The notes under the pieces: model-generated
Database searches by the model: none
Told to the model about the DNA's origin: nothing
What the model saw: the letters and a program-made list of their open reading frames with translations, nothing else
Part shown: piece by piece, positions 178 through 61,849 of the stretch
How the letters are laid out: every line of letters begins with the position of its first letter
How positions within the stretch are numbered: position 1 is the first letter of the stretch
NCBI GenBank assembly: GCA_017304135.1
Contig: JAFLBB010000013.1
Coordinates: forward strand, 1 to 64,000
Direction: 5' to 3'
Length of the DNA stretch: 64,000 bases
Origin: Acidobacteriota bacterium
GTDB lineage: Bacteria; Acidobacteriota; Terriglobia; Bryobacterales; Bryobacteraceae
Position numbers and translations under genes: made by a program

Positions 178-894
178 TTACACCAGCCCCTCGGCCACGT
201 CCAAATCCTCCGGACGGCCCACGTCGCGCCACTCGCCTTTGAGGCCATGCAGCAACACGCGGCGCCGTTCCGTGAGCAGCATCTCAACCGCCGTGGTCAG
301 CTCATACTCGCCGCGCGGTGAGAGCGGGAGCCTCTCCAGCAGCTCAAACACACCCGCCCGGAACACATACGCGCCGGCGCTGTTCCAATGGGTGGCGGAG
401 GTTCCGCGAAGTGGCTTCTCCACAATGCGCTCCACCACGCGCTGCTGCTCGTAGATGGCCGCACCCTGCCAGGGGTCGTCCACCCACTTGGCGGCGAGCA
501 CAGCCTCGGCAGCGGCGTCGTTTTCCAGCATGGCCGTCATCGCCCGGTAGTCAGCCGTTTCGGTGAGGATGTCGCCGAAGGTGAGCAGGAACGGAGCGCC
601 GCCGCAAAACTCGCGCCCGAGCAGCGCCGCCGAACCGGTGCCGTCGAGCTTCTCCTGGCGGCGGCAGCTAAGCTTCATCGGGTAGGCCGCAAAGTGCGCC
701 TCGATCACCTCGGCGCGAAAACCGGTCACCAGCAGCGCTTCGATGAAGCCCGCCGCACGCAGCCGGTCGAGAATGTGCTCGAGCATCGGTTTGCCGCGCA
801 GCTCCAGCATCGGCTTGGGCAGCTCTTCGGTCAACGCGCCCATCCGGGTGCCTCGCCCGGCGGCCAATACAACGCATTTCGAGATCAATCCCAT
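178..894 (-). CDS. Sugar-phosphate nucleotidyltransferase (NTP transferase family)
   Basis: A 238-residue cytoplasmic protein predicted to transfer a nucleoside monophosphate onto a sugar phosphate, making an NDP-sugar for cell-surface glycans. The N-terminus has the family signature LAAGRGTRMG (about residues 11-20) followed by ELPKPMLELRGKPMLEH, which binds the NTP; an LLTFGDI segment supplies the metal-binding Asp region. The length fits the short single-domain NTP_transferase class without a left-handed helix acyltransferase domain. The ATG at 894 is only 11 nt from the GTG of the divergent MFS gene, so the two promoters must overlap the opposite coding start. The exact sugar cannot be told from sequence; MurNAc-1-P uridylyltransferase (MurU) or glucose-1-P thymidylyltransferase-like roles are both possible. 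Confidence 0.85.
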   Translation of the reverse strand: MGLISKCVVLAAGRGTRMGALTEELPKPMLELRGKPMLEHILDRLRAAGFIEALLVTGFRAEVIEAHFAAYPMKLSCRRQEKLDGTGSAALLGREFCGGAPFLLTFGDILTETADYRAMTAMLENDAAAEAVLAAKWVDDPWQGAAIYEQQRVVERIVEKPLRGTSATHWNSAGAYVFRAGVFELLERLPLSPRGEYELTTAVEMLLTERRRVLLHGLKGEWRDVGRPEDLDVAEGLV

Positions 895-899
895 ATAAT
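894..899 (+). promoter_or_regulatory. Perfect -10 hexamer for the MFS gene, possible leaderless start
   Basis: TATAAT lies 6 nt before the GTG start at 906, so transcription would begin at or within a base or two of the start codon. No convincing -35 is visible 16-18 nt upstream, and the hexamer overlaps the ATG of the divergent nucleotidyltransferase. Inference from sequence only. Confidence 0.5.
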
Positions 900-905
900 G
901 CCACC

Positions 906-2195
906 GTGCCCTTCGCTCCCGCCGCTCCCACGGCGCACTCCGCTCCCGCCACCCGCTACCGCTGGTGGATTCTCTCGCTCCTCTTCTTCGCCACCACCGT
1001 CAACTACCTCGACCGCATTCTTTTAGGATTTCTCTATCCGATCATCCGCGATGAGCTGCACATCAACGAGCAGCAGTACGGCTATGTGCAGGCCTGCTTC
1101 TCGGCGGCCTACACGATTGGCTTCCTCATCATGGGCAAGTTCATCGACAAGGTCGGCACGCGCATCGGCTATCTGGTCTCGCTGGTCTGGTGGTCGGTTG
1201 CCGCGGCGCTGCATGCCACCGCCGGCAGCACGGTGGCTCTCGGTTTTTGGCGCGCCGTGCTTGGCGTGGGCGAAGCGGGCAATTTCCCGGCCGCCATCAA
1301 GTCGGTCACCGAGTGGTTCCCGAAGCAGGACCGCGCGTTCGCCACCGGCATCTTCAACGCCGGCTCGAACGTCGCTTCGATGATCGGCCCGCCCGCCTTC
1401 GCCATGATCGCCGCCGCCTATGGCTGGCGTATGTGCTTTCTGCTCACGGCCGCGCTGGGCATTGGCTGGGTCGTGCTGTGGGTGCTCACCTACCAGCGCC
1501 CTGAGATTCACCCCCGCGTCAACGACGCCGAACGGGCCTACATTCTCGGCGATGCCGAGGCCGAAGCCGCCAACGAGCCCACCGTCGGCTGGGCCAAGGC
1601 GCTCACCTACAAACAGACGTGGGGCTTCGCGCTGGCCAAGTTCCTCACCGACCCGGTTTGGTGGTTTTACCTGTACTGGCTGCCGCCCTACCTCTACGAC
1701 GTGCGCAAATTCAACATGACCGAGATCGCCTGGGCGCTGCCGTTCATCTACCTGATGGCCGATTTCGGCAGCGTCGGCGGCGGCTGGATCTCCGGCTACC
1801 TGATGCGCCGCGGCTGGCCCAACGGCAAGGCCCGCAAGACCGCCATGGCTCTCTGCGCCGTGTGCATGCCGATCGGGGCCTTAAGTGTCCTGGCAGGCAA
1901 TCCGGTTCTCGCCGTCGTTCTGATCAGCCTCGCCACCTCCGGTCACCAGGGCTGGTCAGCCAACCTCTACACCACCGCTACCGATGTCTTCCCCAAGGCC
2001 GCCTCGGCTTCGGTGACCGGCATCGGGGGCTGCCTGGGCGGACTCGGCGGCGTCATCTTCTCGTCGCTGCTGCCCGGCTACATCGTCACCCATTTCGGCT
2101 ACACGCCCATCTTCCTCATCATGGGCAGCTTCCACCTGATCGGCCTGCTCGTCGTCCACCTGCTGCTGGGCGACATGAGGAGGCTGCAAAAATGA
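906..2195 (+). CDS. MFS transporter, hexuronate/anion:cation symporter type
   Basis: A 429-residue inner-membrane permease with about 12 hydrophobic segments. The N-terminal TM1 ends in NYLDR, followed by the loop motif GKFIDKVGTRIG between TM2 and TM3, typical of the ACS family (ExuT/GudP-like) that carries hexuronates, galactonate or glucarate. The start is the GTG at 906: no in-frame ATG exists before the first membrane span, and a TATAAT sits 6 nt upstream. The stop overlaps the ATG of the downstream sulfatase (ATGA), so the two are co-transcribed. Import of a sugar acid released from a sulfated polysaccharide is a reasonable but unproven link. Confidence 0.88.
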   Translation: MPFAPAAPTAHSAPATRYRWWILSLLFFATTVNYLDRILLGFLYPIIRDELHINEQQYGYVQACFSAAYTIGFLIMGKFIDKVGTRIGYLVSLVWWSVAAALHATAGSTVALGFWRAVLGVGEAGNFPAAIKSVTEWFPKQDRAFATGIFNAGSNVASMIGPPAFAMIAAAYGWRMCFLLTAALGIGWVVLWVLTYQRPEIHPRVNDAERAYILGDAEAEAANEPTVGWAKALTYKQTWGFALAKFLTDPVWWFYLYWLPPYLYDVRKFNMTEIAWALPFIYLMADFGSVGGGWISGYLMRRGWPNGKARKTAMALCAVCMPIGALSVLAGNPVLAVVLISLATSGHQGWSANLYTTATDVFPKAASASVTGIGGCLGGLGGVIFSSLLPGYIVTHFGYTPIFLIMGSFHLIGLLVVHLLLGDMRRLQK

Positions 2196-5140: not shown

Positions 5141-5257
5141 TCCCCCTCAAACCCGATTGCATTCTGACGCCTTACCCCCCTTGAACCCCTCCCATCACCC
5201 TCGTATTCTAAGAAGAGCTGTCAACAATCGACGCTTTTGGCAGCTTCTGTACCCGTT

Positions 5258-7222
5258 ATGCGCGAAGTTCCTGGTTTCGTGATCCGAAGCGAGTTCCACG
5301 CCACCGTCACCGCCCCTGCCCCGGCAATCGAAACGGTTCCCGCCGAGGAGGCTCTAGCCACCGCCCGCCACGCCGCCCGCGCCCTCATCGCCAAGCAGCA
5401 CCCGGACGGCTATTGGAACGGCAAGCTGACCGCGGATTCCACCCTCCAGGCCGACTACATCCTCCTGCAGATGTGGCTCCATCCGGCGGAGGCCGACGGC
5501 ACGTGGGATCCGCCGACGCTGCCCAAAATCCGCAAGGCCGCGCGCGCCATTCTCGACGCCCAGATGCCCGACGGCGGCTGGAGCATCTACGAACCCGGCC
5601 CGGCCGAAATCAACGCCACCGTGCGCGCCTACACCGCCCTCAAAATGGCCGGCATGGACATGGACCACCCGCGCATGCGGCAGGCGCTGGGAATGGTTCA
5701 CAGACTGGGCGGCATCCAGGCCTGCAACAGTTACACGAAGATCAACTTCAGCCTGTTCGATCTCTTCCCCCGCAAGTTCTGCCCCACCATCCCGCCGGAG
5801 CTGATGATCCTGCCGGGCAACTTCCTTTATGAGATGTCCTCCTGGACGCGCAGCATCATTGTGCCGCTCTCCATCGTCCAGGCCCTCGGCGGAACAAAGC
5901 CCACGCCGGGACTGCACCGCGTCGACGAACTCACCCACCCGCGCCGCAAGTTCGCCCTGGCCCGCCGCGACCGCATCGCCAACCTCTTCGTCGCCGCCGA
6001 CAAGCTCTTCAAGCGCTGGGAACGCCAGAACGTCCGCCGCATCCGCCAGGAAGCCATCCGCGAGGCCGAGGAGTGGATGCTGCAGCACCTGGAACACTCA
6101 GAGGGCCTGGGCGCCATCTATCCCGGCATGATGTATGGCATCATGGCGCTCGACGCGCTCGGCTACGAACGCGACCATCCGGACCTGATTCGCGAGATCC
6201 GCCACTTCGACAATCTCATGCTGGAGGGTCCGGAAAGCCTCATCTTCCAGCCCGCCAAGTCGCCCGTGTGGGACACGGCCATCGCCGCCTATGCCCTGGG
6301 CGAGCTCGGCCAGCACGACTCACCCTCGCTCGCCGCTGCCGCCGATTGGCTGCTCCTCAAGGAGATCCGCCGCAAGGGTGACTGGGCGCGCAAACGCCCC
6401 GACCTGCGGCCCTCGGGCTGGGCCTTCGAGTTCGACAACGAGTTCTATCCGGATATCGACGACACGGCGATGGTGCTGCTGGCCCTGCTCCATGCGAAGT
6501 CGAATGACCAGGAGCGCCAGTCCCGCGCCGAAGCCCGTGCCGTGAACTGGCTGCTCGGCATGCAAAGCTCCGACGGCGGCTGGGCCGCCTTCGATGTGGA
6601 CAACAACTGGGAGTTCCTGAACAAGGTTCCCTTTGCCGACCATAACGCCATGCTCGACCCGACTTGCCCGGACATCACCGGCCGCACGCTGGAGTCGCTC
6701 TGCCGCCGCGGATTCGACCATCGCGATGAGCCCATCGCCCGCGGCATCGACTACCTGCTCAACCATCAGGAAGCGGATGGCAGCTGGTATGGCCGTTGGG
6801 GTGTGAACTACGTCTACGGCACCTTCCTGGCCATTCGAGGCCTCGCCGCCACCGGGTCGCCCGACGTCGCTCCAGCCATCGACCGCGGCGCACGCTGGTT
6901 GAGGTCCGTCCAGAACCCTGACGGCGGGTGGGGCGAAAGTTGCCGCGGCTACGACACCGGCAGGTTTGAGCGCGCCGTCAGCACGCCCTCGCAGACCGCG
7001 TGGGCCGTGCTTGGCCTGATTGCGGCCGGAAGAGCGCGCAGCGCCGAGACCGTCCGCGGCGTCCAGTGGCTCAAAAACAACCAGCGCCCGGACGGCACCT
7101 GGGAGGAGTCAATCACCACTGGCACCGGCTTCCCCCGCGTCTTCTACATCAGCTACCACCTCTACCGCGACTACTTCCCCATTTATGCGCTGGCGGCCTA
7201 TGCCAGAGCCATCATCGCGTAG
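5258..7222 (+). CDS. shc: Squalene-hopene cyclase
   Basis: A monotopic membrane-associated cyclase (about 654 residues) that folds squalene into hopene, the first committed step of hopanoid synthesis. It carries the catalytic DIDD of the D-x-D-D motif (about residues 399-402) and many QW repeats, such as QMPDGGW, QSSDGGW, QNPDGGW and QRPDGTW, spread over the (alpha/alpha)6 barrels; length matches the family. An in-frame TTG at 5237 would add 7 residues; the ATG at 5258 is preferred although no clear Shine-Dalgarno is visible. TATTCT at 5205-5210 is a plausible -10. No other hpn genes are adjacent, so hopanoid tailoring enzymes must lie elsewhere. Confidence 0.95.
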   Translation: MREVPGFVIRSEFHATVTAPAPAIETVPAEEALATARHAARALIAKQHPDGYWNGKLTADSTLQADYILLQMWLHPAEADGTWDPPTLPKIRKAARAILDAQMPDGGWSIYEPGPAEINATVRAYTALKMAGMDMDHPRMRQALGMVHRLGGIQACNSYTKINFSLFDLFPRKFCPTIPPELMILPGNFLYEMSSWTRSIIVPLSIVQALGGTKPTPGLHRVDELTHPRRKFALARRDRIANLFVAADKLFKRWERQNVRRIRQEAIREAEEWMLQHLEHSEGLGAIYPGMMYGIMALDALGYERDHPDLIREIRHFDNLMLEGPESLIFQPAKSPVWDTAIAAYALGELGQHDSPSLAAAADWLLLKEIRRKGDWARKRPDLRPSGWAFEFDNEFYPDIDDTAMVLLALLHAKSNDQERQSRAEARAVNWLLGMQSSDGGWAAFDVDNNWEFLNKVPFADHNAMLDPTCPDITGRTLESLCRRGFDHRDEPIARGIDYLLNHQEADGSWYGRWGVNYVYGTFLAIRGLAATGSPDVAPAIDRGARWLRSVQNPDGGWGESCRGYDTGRFERAVSTPSQTAWAVLGLIAAGRARSAETVRGVQWLKNNQRPDGTWEESITTGTGFPRVFYISYHLYRDYFPIYALAAYARAIIA

Positions 7223-7306
7223 CATTCCGGGCCAGACCACAGGCCTCCGGCGCTTCGGGAACCTTTCCCTGTTATCTGTCGTACACTATGGCAGGGATTG
7301 ACGAAT

Positions 7307-7786
7307 ATGCCCTTCTGCACACAATGCGGTAGCCAGGTGTCCCCCGCGGATACCTACTGCCACCAGTGCGGAAGCCAGCAGCCCGGGGCCACCCCAGGGG
7401 CCTCTCCGCCGCGCCCTTCCGGCGGGCAAACCAACTTCACCGACAACATCGACGACCGCACCTGGAAGACCCTTTGCTACATACCGGGCTTGGGGTGGCT
7501 GGCCAGCGTCTTCGTGCTGGCAGCGGACCGCTTCGGGCGTGACCGCACGGCCCGCTTCCACGCCTTCCAGGGCCTCTACCTCTTCGTCGCCTGGCTCGTC
7601 ATCGACTGGGGCCTCGGCCCGGCCTTCCAATTCGGCCGCTCGTTCCGCCTTGACGTGGAAGGCCTCGTCAAGCTGGTCCTGTTCGGCGTCGGCATCTTCA
7701 TGATGATTAAGACCTGGCACGGCCAGATCTTCCGCCTGCCCATCTTCAGCGAACTGGCTGACCGCAGCCTCGCCGACCACCCCTAA
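7307..7786 (+). CDS. Zinc-ribbon protein with DUF4870-like membrane domain
   Basis: A 159-residue protein with an N-terminal double-Cys zinc ribbon (FCTQCGSQ and YCHQCGSQ, residues 2-24), a Gly/Pro-rich linker, then a membrane domain with about three hydrophobic helices resembling DUF4870/Tic20-type proteins (LCYIPGLGWLASVFVL, FHAFQGLYLFVAWLVI, and VLFGVGIFMMIKTW). The ATG at 7307 is preferred over an in-frame TTG at 7298 because AGGG lies at a workable distance. Function is unknown; this architecture is common in Gram-negatives and often described as a small integral membrane protein. It is 84 nt after the cyclase and could be co-transcribed. Confidence 0.75.
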   Translation: MPFCTQCGSQVSPADTYCHQCGSQQPGATPGASPPRPSGGQTNFTDNIDDRTWKTLCYIPGLGWLASVFVLAADRFGRDRTARFHAFQGLYLFVAWLVIDWGLGPAFQFGRSFRLDVEGLVKLVLFGVGIFMMIKTWHGQIFRLPIFSELADRSLADHP

Positions 7787-7907: not shown

Positions 7908-9896
7908 ATGAACCGACGAGAGCAGGAGATGTGGAGTCCGCGCGAAGTGGCGCGCCTGCTTTCACTTCTGGAGGCTGAACGGCGTTACTACCAGGAGATC
8001 ATGGCGGCCGTCCCCTCCGGCCTGGGAATCGTCGGCCAGGACGGGACCGTTCAGATTTCCAACCGCGCTTTGCGTCGCATGTTCGCCCTCGACCCGCTGT
8101 CCGCGGGCGACCCTCCCGTCAGCCAGATCCTTCCCAGCGAGAACCTGCGCACCGCCATTCCGCTCATGCTGTCCGGTGAGCGCACGGAGGCCATGAGCGA
8201 GCTCTCCATGCAGTCCGATGGCCGCTGGCTGCGCTTTTCCCTGCGCCCGTTCCGTGATTGGGACGACTTCTCCCGCCTCGAAGTTCTGCTCACCGTGGAG
8301 GAATCCACCGAAGCCGCCGAGCAGGCCCGCGCCGACGCCGAAGCCGGCCTGGATGCCCTGCGCGCCCGCTACGCCTCCTTGCCCGCCTGCGCCTGGGAGC
8401 TCGACCCAGCCACCATGCGCTTCACCTCGCTGGATGCCGAGGCCGCCGCCGCGCTTTCGCTGGCCCCGGACTCATGGGCCCCCGGCGCCGACTTCTGGAC
8501 CTCCCGTGTTCACCCCGGCGACCTGGCCCGCCTGAAGGGCTTCTGGGAACTCGCCCTGCGCGGCACGGCTCTGCGCTCCTGTGACTATGGCACCCCCACC
8601 TCGCAGGGCCGATCCCGCCGCCTGCGCGATTATTGGACCATCCTGCGCGACGAGTCCGGCCAGCTGGCGCGCGTTCAGGGCCTGACCCTCGACGTAAGCG
8701 AGGAGTTCGAAATCTCCCGCCTTTCGGCGCAAAGCGAACGCGTGGAGGCGATGCACGAACTCGCCGGCCGTATCGTCCACGACTCCAACAACCTGCTCAT
8801 GATCCTCTCCGGCTACGGTGAGGAACTGCTGCACGGGCTCGACTCGGATCACCCCCTGCGCGCCCACGTCCAGGAGATTCTCGCCGCCGGCGACCGGCTG
8901 TCGGCCCTCACCTCCCACCTGGCCGCCTCCACGCGCAAGGAGGCCGAACCGGAAACCCGCCCCGCTCCCATCGACACCCTGCTCGCAGAGTGGCTCGACT
9001 CGCTCTCGGCCATGGCCGGCTCCAAAGTGGATCTGCGCCTGGAATGCGGAGCCCCCGGCGTACACGCCAGCACTGAGCCGGACCGCCTCCGCCTGGGCCT
9101 GGAACTCCTGCTCCGCCGCGCCTCGGCCGCCATGCTCGCCGGCGGTTCCATCCACATAGCCACCCGCGTCGACCACCGCCAGACGGCCACCGCCCGCCCG
9201 GATGGCGCTCTCTCGCACCCCTCCTACTTGCGCATCGAGATTCGCGACAACGGCATCGCCCTCCACCCGGAGGCCCGGTCCAGCTTCTTCGCCCCCAACC
9301 TGTCGAGCGAACCCAACCGCGAGGAGTTGGCCCGCTTCTACCGCTTCCTGCGCGAGACCGGCGGCGACGCGATGGCCGATTCCGACTACCAGGTGGGCAC
9401 CACCATCACGCTCTTCCTGCCCTGCACCGAGCAGGAGCCCGTCGCCACGCCGCCCGCCGAGACCACCACGCTCACGGCCGCCGCGCCCAAGGAAACCATC
9501 CTCGTGGTCGATGATGAAGACGGCATCCGCGCCCTCATGGCCAAGGTGCTCACCCGCGAAGGCTATGAAGTGATCGAAGCATCCAGCGGCGAAGAAGCGC
9601 TGGAAAAGGCCAACGCCTACTGGGGCCAGATCCCCCTCATGGTGACCGACGTCGTGATGCCCGGCATGGGGGGTGTCGACCTTGCGGCGCAGTTGTCGCC
9701 ACAACGCCCCGAGACGTTCGTCATGTTCATCTCCGGCTACACGGGCCAGGCGGCGTTGTCCACCGCTCAGCTCGCCCGAGGCTACGAGTTTCTCCAGAAG
9801 CCCTTCACGCTCTCCGCTTTCCTGGGAAAGATCCGCGCCATCCTCAGCGCGCCAAGGCCCGCCGCCAAGGCCCGCGGCCACGCCACCGGCGCGTGA
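7908..9896 (+). CDS. PAS hybrid sensor protein with degraded kinase ATPase domain and C-terminal receiver
   Basis: A 662-residue cytoplasmic protein. Residues about 20-135 form a PAS domain (QEIMAAVPSGLGIVGQDG), about 150-270 a second PAS-like region, then an HisKA-like helix with GRIVHDSNNLLMILSGYG (His291). The following ATPase region is unusual: the N-box Asn is missing (LELLLRRASAAM), the G1 box reads DNGIAL, and no GTGLGL G2 box is found. The C-terminal receiver (about 520-640) is intact: LVVDDED, phospho-acceptor in VTDVVMPGMGG, ISGYT and QKPF. It may act as a phospho-relay or phosphatase rather than a kinase. A strong GGAAGGAG precedes the ATG. It has no adjacent cognate regulator. Confidence 0.85.
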   Translation: MNRREQEMWSPREVARLLSLLEAERRYYQEIMAAVPSGLGIVGQDGTVQISNRALRRMFALDPLSAGDPPVSQILPSENLRTAIPLMLSGERTEAMSELSMQSDGRWLRFSLRPFRDWDDFSRLEVLLTVEESTEAAEQARADAEAGLDALRARYASLPACAWELDPATMRFTSLDAEAAAALSLAPDSWAPGADFWTSRVHPGDLARLKGFWELALRGTALRSCDYGTPTSQGRSRRLRDYWTILRDESGQLARVQGLTLDVSEEFEISRLSAQSERVEAMHELAGRIVHDSNNLLMILSGYGEELLHGLDSDHPLRAHVQEILAAGDRLSALTSHLAASTRKEAEPETRPAPIDTLLAEWLDSLSAMAGSKVDLRLECGAPGVHASTEPDRLRLGLELLLRRASAAMLAGGSIHIATRVDHRQTATARPDGALSHPSYLRIEIRDNGIALHPEARSSFFAPNLSSEPNREELARFYRFLRETGGDAMADSDYQVGTTITLFLPCTEQEPVATPPAETTTLTAAAPKETILVVDDEDGIRALMAKVLTREGYEVIEASSGEEALEKANAYWGQIPLMVTDVVMPGMGGVDLAAQLSPQRPETFVMFISGYTGQAALSTAQLARGYEFLQKPFTLSAFLGKIRAILSAPRPAAKARGHATGA

Positions 9897-59353: not shown

Positions 59354-59382
59354 ATTGTAGGTTTGTGTAAAGGTTGGGTAAA
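59354..59382 (-). promoter_or_regulatory. Spy-like operon promoter with CpxR-type box
   Basis: On the minus strand: -35 TTTACC (59382-59377), 17-base spacer, -10 TACAAT (59359-59354). On the plus strand GTAAA (59367-59371), 6 bases, GTAAA (59378-59382) form a direct repeat of the type bound by CpxR (GTAAA-N4-8-GTAAA). A third GTAAA lies at 59334-59338. The repeat covers the -35, as expected for an activator that contacts RNA polymerase there. Confidence 0.55.
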
Positions 59383-59447
59383 TGTCGGGCAGCGCGCAAG
59401 TTGAGTGTGTACTATCGAATTGGGCGAGAGAGGATGAAAGGCCGAAG

Positions 59448-60203
59448 ATGAGCGGAACCGGGGCTCATGAAATGGAATTGTCGGCAACGCGTCTGCTGAT
59501 TGTCGACGACGACGAAAAGCTGGCCCGTCTGCTGCGCGACTACCTGGAGCCGCTCGGCTACCGCGTGGACCTCGTTCACAACGGTGTGGCCGGGCTGAAG
59601 CAGGCCCGCGAAGGCAACTACTCCGCCGTCATTCTCGACGTGATGATGCCGGGCATGAACGGCATGGAAGTGCTGCGCGAGCTGCGCAGAACGAGCTCGG
59701 TTCCCGTGCTCATGCTCACCGCCCTGGGCGACGAACCGGACCGCATTGCCGGGCTCGAAGTCGGCGCCGACGACTACCTGCCGAAGACCTTTTCCACACG
59801 GGAATTGCTGGCCCGGCTCCGCGCCGTGTTGCGCCGCTCCATGATCACGGCCAAGGCCCATGCCAAGGGCGAGGAAACGCGCGCCGCGGTGGTGGTCGGC
59901 CCGCTCTCCATCGACCCCGAAGCGCGCGAGGCCACCCTCGACGGCAAGCCGCTCGTGCTGACGCCGATTGAATACGACATGCTGCTCGCCCTGGCCCGCG
60001 GCGTGGGCCGCGTGAAAACCCGCGAGGCCCTGCTGCTGGAAGTGGCCGAACGCGACTTCGAAGCCTTTGACCGCTCCATCGACGTCCACATCTCCTCGCT
60101 GCGGAAAAAGTTGGGTGACGATCCGAAATCGCCTAAGTTCATTGAGACTGTGCGCGGCGCCGGCTACCGCATGCGAAAACCGGGGAGTGAGCCATGGGAG
60201 TAA
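59448..60203 (+). CDS. OmpR-family response regulator (CpxR-like)
   Basis: A 251-residue regulator. Receiver about 14-130: LLIVDDDEKLARLL (Asp20-22), phospho-acceptor Asp64 in VILDVMMPGMNG, Thr91, and Lys113 in YLPKTFSTREL, where Thr replaces the usual Pro after Lys. The OmpR/PhoB winged helix (about 155-245) includes PLSIDPEAREATLDGKPLVL, LTPIEYDMLLAL and DRSIDVHISSLRKKLGDDPK. AAGG lies upstream of the ATG at 59448; an ATG at 59472 is also in frame. Its stop overlaps the kinase start by 10 nt. It presumably binds the GTAAA repeats in the divergent region. Confidence 0.93.
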   Translation: MSGTGAHEMELSATRLLIVDDDEKLARLLRDYLEPLGYRVDLVHNGVAGLKQAREGNYSAVILDVMMPGMNGMEVLRELRRTSSVPVLMLTALGDEPDRIAGLEVGADDYLPKTFSTRELLARLRAVLRRSMITAKAHAKGEETRAAVVVGPLSIDPEAREATLDGKPLVLTPIEYDMLLALARGVGRVKTREALLLEVAERDFEAFDRSIDVHISSLRKKLGDDPKSPKFIETVRGAGYRMRKPGSEPWE

Positions 60204-61849
60204 ACCCCCGCTTCTCCCTGTCCACGAAGTTCGCCCTGCTGGCGCTGCTCAACGTAGCGCTGCTGGCCGTCGTGTTTGTCGTCTTCGTCCGCTGGCAGTT
60301 GAGTGAGGAACTGGAGTCGTTCCTCATGTCGACGGCGCGCGACCGCATCAGCAGCGTCTCGCGCAGCCTCGCGCTGGAGATGCAGCAGCACGACCGTTCG
60401 CACTGGAGCAGGCTGCTGCAGCAGTATTCCGACGAGCAGGGCGTCACCTTCATGCTCATCCAGACCGACGGCCAGGTGATGGCCGGTCCCGAGCTGGAAC
60501 TGCCCGCCGTCGTACAGGAGCGGCTCGTGCGCCCGCCGCAACGTGGCATTCCCGGTTTCAACCTTTTCCGCGAATGGAAAGGCCCCGGGCCTCCGCCGGA
60601 ACCACCCGTCAACCGTGAAGAGGAGCTGCGCCGGATGCAGCGTGAAATGAAGGCCGCCGGCAGGGAACTGAAAGCCGCCGGGAGGGAAATTAAAGAGGCC
60701 GAGAGCGAGATGCGCCGGCGCTATTTCCGCACCATCCCTTACTTCAATCCGACCCCTCCCCTTCTTGTAGTCTCCGAAGGGGCGACTCCTTACTGGGTGG
60801 GCGTCCGTCTCATGCTGCCTCCCGATGGCGAAGGCGAGCCGGTGCGCGCCTCCTTGCTGCTGGTCTCCTCCACCTTCTACAGCAATCCTTTCTTCTTCCA
60901 GCTGCGGCCCTGGCTTTGGATCGCCGCCGCGGCCATTGTCGTCTCCTTCCTCTGCTGGCTGCCGCTTGTGCATGGCCTGACTCAATCAACAGCCCGTATG
61001 ATGCGCGCCACGGCTGAAATTGCCGAAGGGAAGTTCGATGTCCACGTCGGCGACACGCGGCGTGATGAGCTGGGCCTGCTCGGGGCCGCTATCAATCGCA
61101 TGTCGTCACGCCTGGAGACCTTCACACGCGGGCAGAAGCGCTTCCTGGGCGACGTGGCCCATGAGCTGCGCTCGCCGCTGGCGCGCATGCAACTGGCCCT
61201 CGGCATTCTCGAGCGCAAAGCCGGCCCCGACGGCCAGAGCTATGTGCGCGACCTGATGGAGGATGTGGAGACCATGGCCGGGCTCACCGACGAGCTGCTG
61301 GCCTTCGCGAAAGCCGAGCTGAGCGCCGGGTCCATCAAACTCGAGCCGGTGAACGTGCTCGATGGCGTCCAGCGCGCCGTGCGGGCCGAAGCACGCGAGG
61401 GAGCCGCGGTGGAAGTGAACGTAGCCTCGAATCTCGCCATCATGGCCGACCCGGATTTCCTCTTCCGCTCCGTGTCCAACCTCCTGCGGAACGCCGTGCG
61501 CTACGCCGGCAGCGGCGGCCCCATTGCAATCTCAGCCGAACGGCGCGGCGGCCAGGTGAGAATCGCCGTAGCCGACTCGGGACCTGGAATTCCCGAACAG
61601 GCCGTGGACAAGATCTTCACGCCGTTCTTCCGCCTCGATGAATCGCGCAACCGCAGAACGGGCGGCACCGGACTGGGGCTGGCCATCGTACGCAGTTGCG
61701 TCGAGGCCTGCCACGGCTCAGTGGAGGCGCGCAACCGCAAGCCGCACGGGCTCGAAGTGGTGATGACGTTCACGGCCGCAGATGGATCGGGCCGCGAATC
61801 GCAGGAACTGGCCGCTGTCCGCGTGGACGGGCAGGGCGGGTCGCACTGA
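60194..61849 (+). CDS. Sensor histidine kinase (CpxA-like) with coiled-coil extracytoplasmic domain
   Basis: A 551-residue membrane kinase. TM1 about 13-33 (FALLALLNVALLAVVFVVFV), extracytoplasmic sensor about 34-235 that contains a charged helical repeat (about 140-178; REEELRRMQREMKAAG, RELKAAGREIKEAESEM), TM2 about 238-258, HAMP (STARMMRATAEIAEGKFDVH), HisKA with His323 in VAHELRSPLARM, N-box LLRNAVRYA, G1 ADSGPGIP and G2 GGTGLGLAIVRS. Catalytic elements are complete. It overlaps the regulator gene by 10 nt. The sensor is Pro-rich before the coiled coil (GPGPPPEPPVN). It resembles CpxA/EnvZ in domain order. Confidence 0.92.
   Translation: MGVNPRFSLSTKFALLALLNVALLAVVFVVFVRWQLSEELESFLMSTARDRISSVSRSLALEMQQHDRSHWSRLLQQYSDEQGVTFMLIQTDGQVMAGPELELPAVVQERLVRPPQRGIPGFNLFREWKGPGPPPEPPVNREEELRRMQREMKAAGRELKAAGREIKEAESEMRRRYFRTIPYFNPTPPLLVVSEGATPYWVGVRLMLPPDGEGEPVRASLLLVSSTFYSNPFFFQLRPWLWIAAAAIVVSFLCWLPLVHGLTQSTARMMRATAEIAEGKFDVHVGDTRRDELGLLGAAINRMSSRLETFTRGQKRFLGDVAHELRSPLARMQLALGILERKAGPDGQSYVRDLMEDVETMAGLTDELLAFAKAELSAGSIKLEPVNVLDGVQRAVRAEAREGAAVEVNVASNLAIMADPDFLFRSVSNLLRNAVRYAGSGGPIAISAERRGGQVRIAVADSGPGIPEQAVDKIFTPFFRLDESRNRRTGGTGLGLAIVRSCVEACHGSVEARNRKPHGLEVVMTFTAADGSGRESQELAAVRVDGQGGSH

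Follow-up and report, generated by a model that had tools for sequence, protein, structure and literature searches.

In the 64,000-nucleotide stretch of Bryobacteraceae DNA analysed here (the window), an open reading frame encodes a protein with the domain order PAS-DHp-CA-receiver, the features of which are collected in Table 1. It lies just downstream of a squalene-hopene cyclase gene (5237-7222; TIGR01507, 641.6 bits) and a gene for a zinc-ribbon protein (7298-7786), and is followed by genes for a PEP-CTERM protein, a DinB-like protein and RecA. About 50 kb away, at 59382-61849, the window also holds a response regulator (receiver plus Trans_reg_C) and then a HAMP histidine kinase, whose HisKA and HATPase_c matches both exceed their cut-offs. 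In our protein the receiver is matched strongly by Pfam (Response_reg, residues 531-642, 71.9 bits), while HisKA (residues 283-346, 16.0 bits) and HATPase_c (residues 438-506, 19.6 bits) fall under the curated cut-offs of 26.9 and 26.4 bits. Within the source genome the reading frame is the weakest of 41 HisKA sites found at E <=0.01, and it is not among the HATPase_c matches at E <=0.001, where 55 other sites are listed.

Table 1. Features of the gene and its product, with positions in the window
Feature	Position	Strand	Basis or remark
Hybrid pseudo-histidine kinase ORF	7908..9896	+	662 aa plus stop, ATG start
Family-specific N-terminal signature, residues 1-36, W...EVARLLxLxExERRYYQEI	7908..8015	+	Alignment, searches
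PAS_4 domain, residues 34-135	8007..8312	+	Pfam
PAS_3 match, residues 186-259	8463..8684	+	Pfam
DHp domain, residues 266-345	8703..8942	+	Alignment, AF2 model pLDDT 91.5
His291, predicted phospho-acceptor	8778..8780	+	Kept in 83/84 members
Asn295, +4 site	8790..8792	+	Kept in 82/84 members
Degenerate CA (ATPase-fold) domain, residues 350-510	8955..9437	+	Pfam, alignment, AF2, structural matches
N-box site, Arg404	9117..9119	+	Alignment; Asn in 12/12 canonical kinases
G1 remnant DNGIAL, residues 447-452	9246..9263	+	Alignment
Lost G2 and shortened ATP-lid region, residues 467-486	9306..9365	+	Alignment
Receiver domain, residues 529-648	9492..9851	+	Pfam, alignment
Asp581, predicted receiver phosphorylation site	9648..9650	+	80/84 members
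Lys631, receiver active-site Lys	9798..9800	+	84/84 members

The first-pass annotation, made from the letters of the window, had described a hybrid sensor with an intact histidine and receiver beside a degraded ATPase, and its reading of the motifs holds throughout. His291 stands in a good H-box, HDSNN (residues 291-295), with the adjacent acid present, and the receiver is complete (D535, D536, D581, S609 and K631). The controls were 12 HDFNN hybrid kinases outside the family, taken from the 18 such loci found in related genomes, and every motif is present in all 12. Aligned with these, the window protein has Arg404 in the column of the N-box Asn and L400 in that of the earlier N-box Asn; G1 does read DNGIAL from D447, its Asp and first Gly staying while the second Gly has become Ala; the six columns of GTGLGL hold PNREEL; and the lid region is four residues shorter. 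A G3-like VGTTITLFLP is still present. The same annotation had proposed an alignment that might reveal shifted motifs, and none is shifted in the alignment with the 12 intact hybrids and the family members described below, so that this explanation can be set aside at alignment level. In a crude regular-expression scan of 30 loci from the 41 HisKA sites of the source genome (E <=0.01), 28 showed the N-box or the G2 pattern, 20 of them both. Of the two misses, one ORF seems to be cut short where its contig ends and the second seems to be a wrong choice of ORF. By motif, then, the protein is not an active hybrid histidine kinase; its anatomy, a DHp domain with a conserved His next to a degenerate CA domain, is in keeping with the pseudo-histidine kinases.

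The gene belongs to a family, which is separated from generic PAS matches by a signature in the first 130 residues (Table 1). Among 200 genomes of the same taxonomic family we found 91 matches in 89, all at >=59.9 bits, the next score being 46.1, and among 396 genomes across the phylum scores above 43 bits occurred in three only, all of that same taxonomic family; since only the best 21 (200-genome set) or best 10 (396-genome set) first-look candidates per genome were scored, the absence of a match in a given genome is not firm. One signature pattern, run against 84,980 species genomes, returned 46 loci, nearly all with Acidobacteria-type titles (Bryobacterales, Bryobacteraceae, Bryobacter, Paludibaculum, Terriglobia and similar), and a single weak match in the Chloroflexota (E 5e-5) that may be generic. 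Two bins that carry the family gene are titled 'Bordetella parapertussis' (L214) and 'Acidimicrobiia' (L204), titles that are probably wrong. In open-licence papers, searched mostly without the name of the taxon, we found no description of the family.

The 91 sequences (the window protein and 90 further matches) were reduced to 84 near-full-length members, on which the counts below are based, by dropping seven (L131, L160, L167, L175, L176, L182 and L184) whose ORF was truncated or broken, or had no H-box or receiver in the alignment. A single split gene of genome G001 accounts for both L188 and L167; of the two, L188 was retained, although its first 27 residues are missing. The short or broken ORFs of L175, L176, L184 and L182 may reflect gene decay, assembly faults or shorter relatives; L184 (394 aa) and L182 (281 aa) in particular are possibly real shorter relatives without DHp or receiver, and if so would weigh against conservation. 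The second PAS region is absent from 24 of the 84.

No conserved neighbour or operon partner of the gene was found: the commonest neighbour cluster occurs at 14 of the 91 loci, a count that may miss genes because ORFs were chosen greedily and some loci stop at contig ends. The hopene cyclase and the zinc-ribbon protein fall outside the 25 commonest neighbour clusters of the 91 loci; of the window's ORFs, the one at 181-999 (-) has its cluster at 10 loci and the sulfatase ORFs have theirs at seven.

Within the family, the residues that handle a phosphoryl group and those that bind ATP have fared very differently. The phospho-acceptor His is found in 83 of the 84 members and the +3 Asn, like the +4 Asn, in 82; in the receiver, the position of Asp581 is kept in 80, Ser or Thr at 609 in 83 and the Lys in all. 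The N-box Asn survives in 2 of 84 (against 12 of 12 canonical controls), with no common substitute in the other 82, and the remaining ATP motifs differ between members. Only one member, L168, combines the N-box Asn with the G1 Asp and the G2 glycines. The acid at +1 is intermediate, being kept in 64 members, the window protein among them, and replaced by Val throughout one 17-member clade. It would appear from these alignments that the autokinase residues decay while the receiver-handling residues stay, although in the most diverged members the alignment of the CA domain is uncertain. Two orthologues from the same genus, 70% and 69% identical to the window protein, have their losses in the same columns, which, with the near-absence of the N-box Asn across the family, leads us to reject a frameshift or a chance loss.

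That the protein is still a kinase, binding nucleotide through altered motifs or using another phosphodonor, is very improbable in the light of these counts: the N-box Asn is gone without a common substitute, G2 is lost and the other motifs are variable, even if the window protein itself retains the DNG of G1 and the +1 acid and its modelled CA domain, discussed below, matches a nucleotide-bound structure well. The earlier suggestion of a pseudokinase is well supported as far as sequence can support it, by the family-wide loss of the ATP motifs beside a near-invariant His, +4 Asn and receiver site.

A few members depart from the pattern. L168 (2133-4172, -) is a mirror of the window protein, with an intact-looking ATP site, a receiver Asp changed to Gly and an altered acid pocket, a reciprocal pattern that is striking and rests on one gene. 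In L118 (1425-3341, +) the phospho-acceptor His is gone together with most of the H-box; the receiver Asp remains, beside an altered acid pocket. In one clade of three, L148 (6504-8414, -), L149 (5986-7896, +) and L154 (5986-7896, +), the receiver Asp is Glu and an acid-pocket Asp is Ser; this Glu receiver is possibly phosphomimetic.

In a tree of the DHp and receiver domains, the 12 canonical rows are split from the 84 family rows by a branch with support of 100/99, and the backbone within the family is weak. A topology with the other 83 members as one clade apart from L168 is not rejected by the AU test (p 0.364), and the data are compatible with the CA motifs having been lost once, in a common ancestor.

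Measured against the receiver, the CA domain (here residues 383-510) retains about half the identity that it has in intact kinases, the mean ratio of CA to receiver identity for pairs with receiver identities of 0.3-0.7 being 0.44-0.54 in the family (L168 excluded) and 0.85-1.40 in canonical kinases, where two of the four bins are small, with 2 and 3 pairs. Family pairs closer than this have ratios of 0.69 and 0.92 with no canonical counterpart. The 60 best-conserved positions, taken from columns occupied in 60 or more of the 84 members, all lie outside residues 350-510. Among 18 chosen close pairs, dN/dS in the CA domain is 0.05-0.36, below 1 in all 18 and above the DHp value in 16; it is 0.00-0.33 in the DHp domain and 0.00-0.21 in the receiver (17 computable pairs). 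These are simple NG86 counts, with some pairs sharing a member and several dS values above 1, and should be read as rough. Given the lower identity together with dN/dS below 1, the CA domain seems relaxed, not neutral, and purifying selection appears to act on it. The dN/dS values below 1 in these 18 pairs, and the losses common to orthologues in other genomes, are also the grounds on which we rejected a solitary pseudogene in decay and an assembly error.

An AlphaFold2 model of residues 262-514, built with the 84 family sequences, has the DHp domain folded as a helical hairpin and a CA domain of mixed structure (mean pLDDT 91.5, pTM 0.83), and the fold of the CA domain is predicted to be intact despite the lost ATP motifs. 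Even a strongly trimmed member, L178, is modelled confidently (pLDDT 92.1) with a smaller CA domain. The best structural matches are histidine kinases, CckA first, rows within 1 Z being ties: the CA model matches the nucleotide-bound CckA CA domain 5idm with Z 18.0 (rmsd 2.8, 157 residues) and the DHp-CA model matches 5idj with Z 17.6 (rmsd 6.9, 214 residues). A fold match by itself says nothing of activity. What was first called a degraded ATPase is therefore better described as a domain that has lost its motifs but whose fold is predicted to persist, apparently under selection.

A fold kept by purifying selection without its ATP motifs is what might be seen in a protein that acts on a real kinase without catalysis, allosterically or as its heterodimer partner, and whose own phosphorylation would be regulatory or incidental. 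RetS and DivL are kinase-like proteins with such an altered role, RetS modulating GacS and DivL modulating CckA. For neither is this modulation known to require transfer of phosphate by way of its own His, and DivL is not known to rely on a phospho-acceptor His. DivL has been termed a pseudo-histidine kinase (PMC9430884). The model matches both in structure, but no better than it matches active kinases such as CckA, and the relay residues, His, receiver Asp and Lys, are near-invariant in the family studied here. We consider a role of this kind to be quite unlikely for the window protein.

The loss of the ATP motifs, the retention of both phosphate sites and the recurrence of this pattern in dozens of relatives together indicate that the protein probably relays phosphate from one partner to another and does not generate it itself. 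We hold with about even confidence that the window protein is a histidine phosphotransferase, with a receiver-DHp relay in one chain. Its ancestor would have been a hybrid histidine kinase, and the protein, judged by its motifs, would no longer be productive with ATP. A true kinase elsewhere in the cell would phosphorylate Asp581 of the receiver, either itself or by way of a further relay protein. Asp581 and the DHp residue His291 would exchange the phosphoryl group, and His291 would donate it to a partner response regulator, on that regulator's receiver, with the PAS domains and the residual CA fold gating the transfer. We infer the lack of ATP-dependent activity, the phosphotransfer and its direction, the dimerisation and the partners.

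The main rival is that the protein is a phosphatase or phosphate sink by which a pathway is switched off, either because the DHp domain with Asn295 dephosphorylates a partner regulator or because phosphate returns through His291 to the attached receiver and is hydrolysed there. In the HisKA proteins examined in PMC3510030, kinase activity depends on the acid beside the His and phosphatase activity does not; the reverse holds for the Thr or Asn at +4, which phosphatase activity requires and kinase activity does not. The +4 Asn, kept more often in the family than the +1 acid, is accordingly what a phosphatase would show, and as it is equally expected there it does not discriminate in favour of a relay. 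Precedents exist as well, PhyT having first been proposed as a phosphatase (PMC5898713) and LovK with LovR being described as a phosphate sink (PMC5964349). Against this, PhyT showed no phosphatase activity on PhyR in vitro (PMC5898713), and the His, which contributes to HisKA phosphatase activity without being essential (PMC12632262), is near-invariant in the family, as are the receiver residues. This near-invariance leans towards phosphotransfer while remaining compatible with a phosphatase. The first reading had left open whether the protein receives phosphate from another kinase or only dephosphorylates; the conserved His, receiver Asp and Lys favour phosphotransfer over a pure phosphatase. 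We regard the phosphatase or sink reading as unlikely, though less so than the other alternatives.

Some observations weigh against the preferred phosphotransferase reading. Conserved DHp and receiver residues alone do not show a relay, because the 12 ordinary hybrids keep them too, and the receiver Asp is missing in four members and the His in one. An argument from a shortage of phosphotransferases in the source genome was discarded, as four Hpt sites are present there.

Among the closest known proteins are the CckA-type hybrids, which have an HDFNN-like DHp domain and share the PAS-DHp-CA-REC order; the CckA DHp-CA structure 5idj is the best PDB sequence match, with 1.4e-10 for part of the window protein and 1.3e-50 for the family profile. 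The window protein differs in its lost N-box and G2, and it scores 153.7 and 138.9 bits against the NCBIfam CckA equivalog models, whose cut-off is 1000. In the receiver, Arg541, kept in 80 of 84 members, matches CckA Arg583 by its spacing from the acid pocket, and family receivers carry an [FYL]xSG[YF]-like stretch resembling the FxSGY motif reported for CckA-type receivers (PMC9981736); neither discriminates, because canonical hybrids have both.

ChpT of Caulobacter and Spo0B of Bacillus are stand-alone phosphotransferases that are not known to carry PAS or receiver domains, both of which the window protein has. Neither is among the PDB sequence and structural matches listed for the family, which is compatible with some similarity to them. 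The ChpT model PF10090 (HPTransfase) does not match the window ORF in the genome search (E <=0.001) or the Pfam scan (E <=1), the only site in the source genome being on contig C29 (23.4 bits). Published accounts describe ChpT as a DHp domain plus a functionally degenerate CA domain (PMC9981736) and name ChpT and Spo0B degenerated-kinase phosphotransferases (PMC5898713). They also describe PhyT, of the alphaproteobacterial general stress response, as a phosphotransferase with a degenerate ATPase domain whose authors suspect descent from a kinase (PMC5898713), and PhyK as relaying phosphate from MrrA to PhyR, an ability that mutation of G1 or G2 does not abolish (PMC5964349). PhyT and PhyK resemble the window protein in having a degenerate or a dispensable ATP site, respectively, with a functional His; they differ in being of HWE/HisKA_2 type, with HRxxN in PhyT against HDSNN here, and in receiving phosphate from separate single-domain regulators, whereas the receiver of the window protein is on its own chain. 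On the best reading of these analogies, the relay would work like Spo0F-Spo0B, CckA-ChpT or SdrG-PhyT, in a separate lineage.

The kinase-derived phosphotransferases described in the papers cited, Spo0B, ChpT, PhyT and PhyK, are all separate proteins (PMC5898713, PMC9981736, PMC5964349), and the present family looks like an independent, lineage-restricted acidobacterial case in which the receiver is still attached. A broader proposal, which we offer tentatively and think rather unlikely, is that the family forms a lineage-wide Asp-His relay, the equivalent of Spo0F and Spo0B in one protein, which would have arisen independently from a CckA-like hybrid kinase in the Bryobacterales and may serve as a hub from several unlinked kinases to a distant regulator, the dead CA domain acting as a regulatory module that does not use ATP. 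Such proteins can carry a sensor-kinase annotation despite an absent ATP site, and caution is needed in reading it. The 84 sequences provide a graded series of ATP-site loss, with G1 kept or lost, the +1 acid kept or lost and the CA domain trimmed, and L168 provides the opposite pattern; with these in hand, the use of a kinase fold without ATP becomes a testable question.
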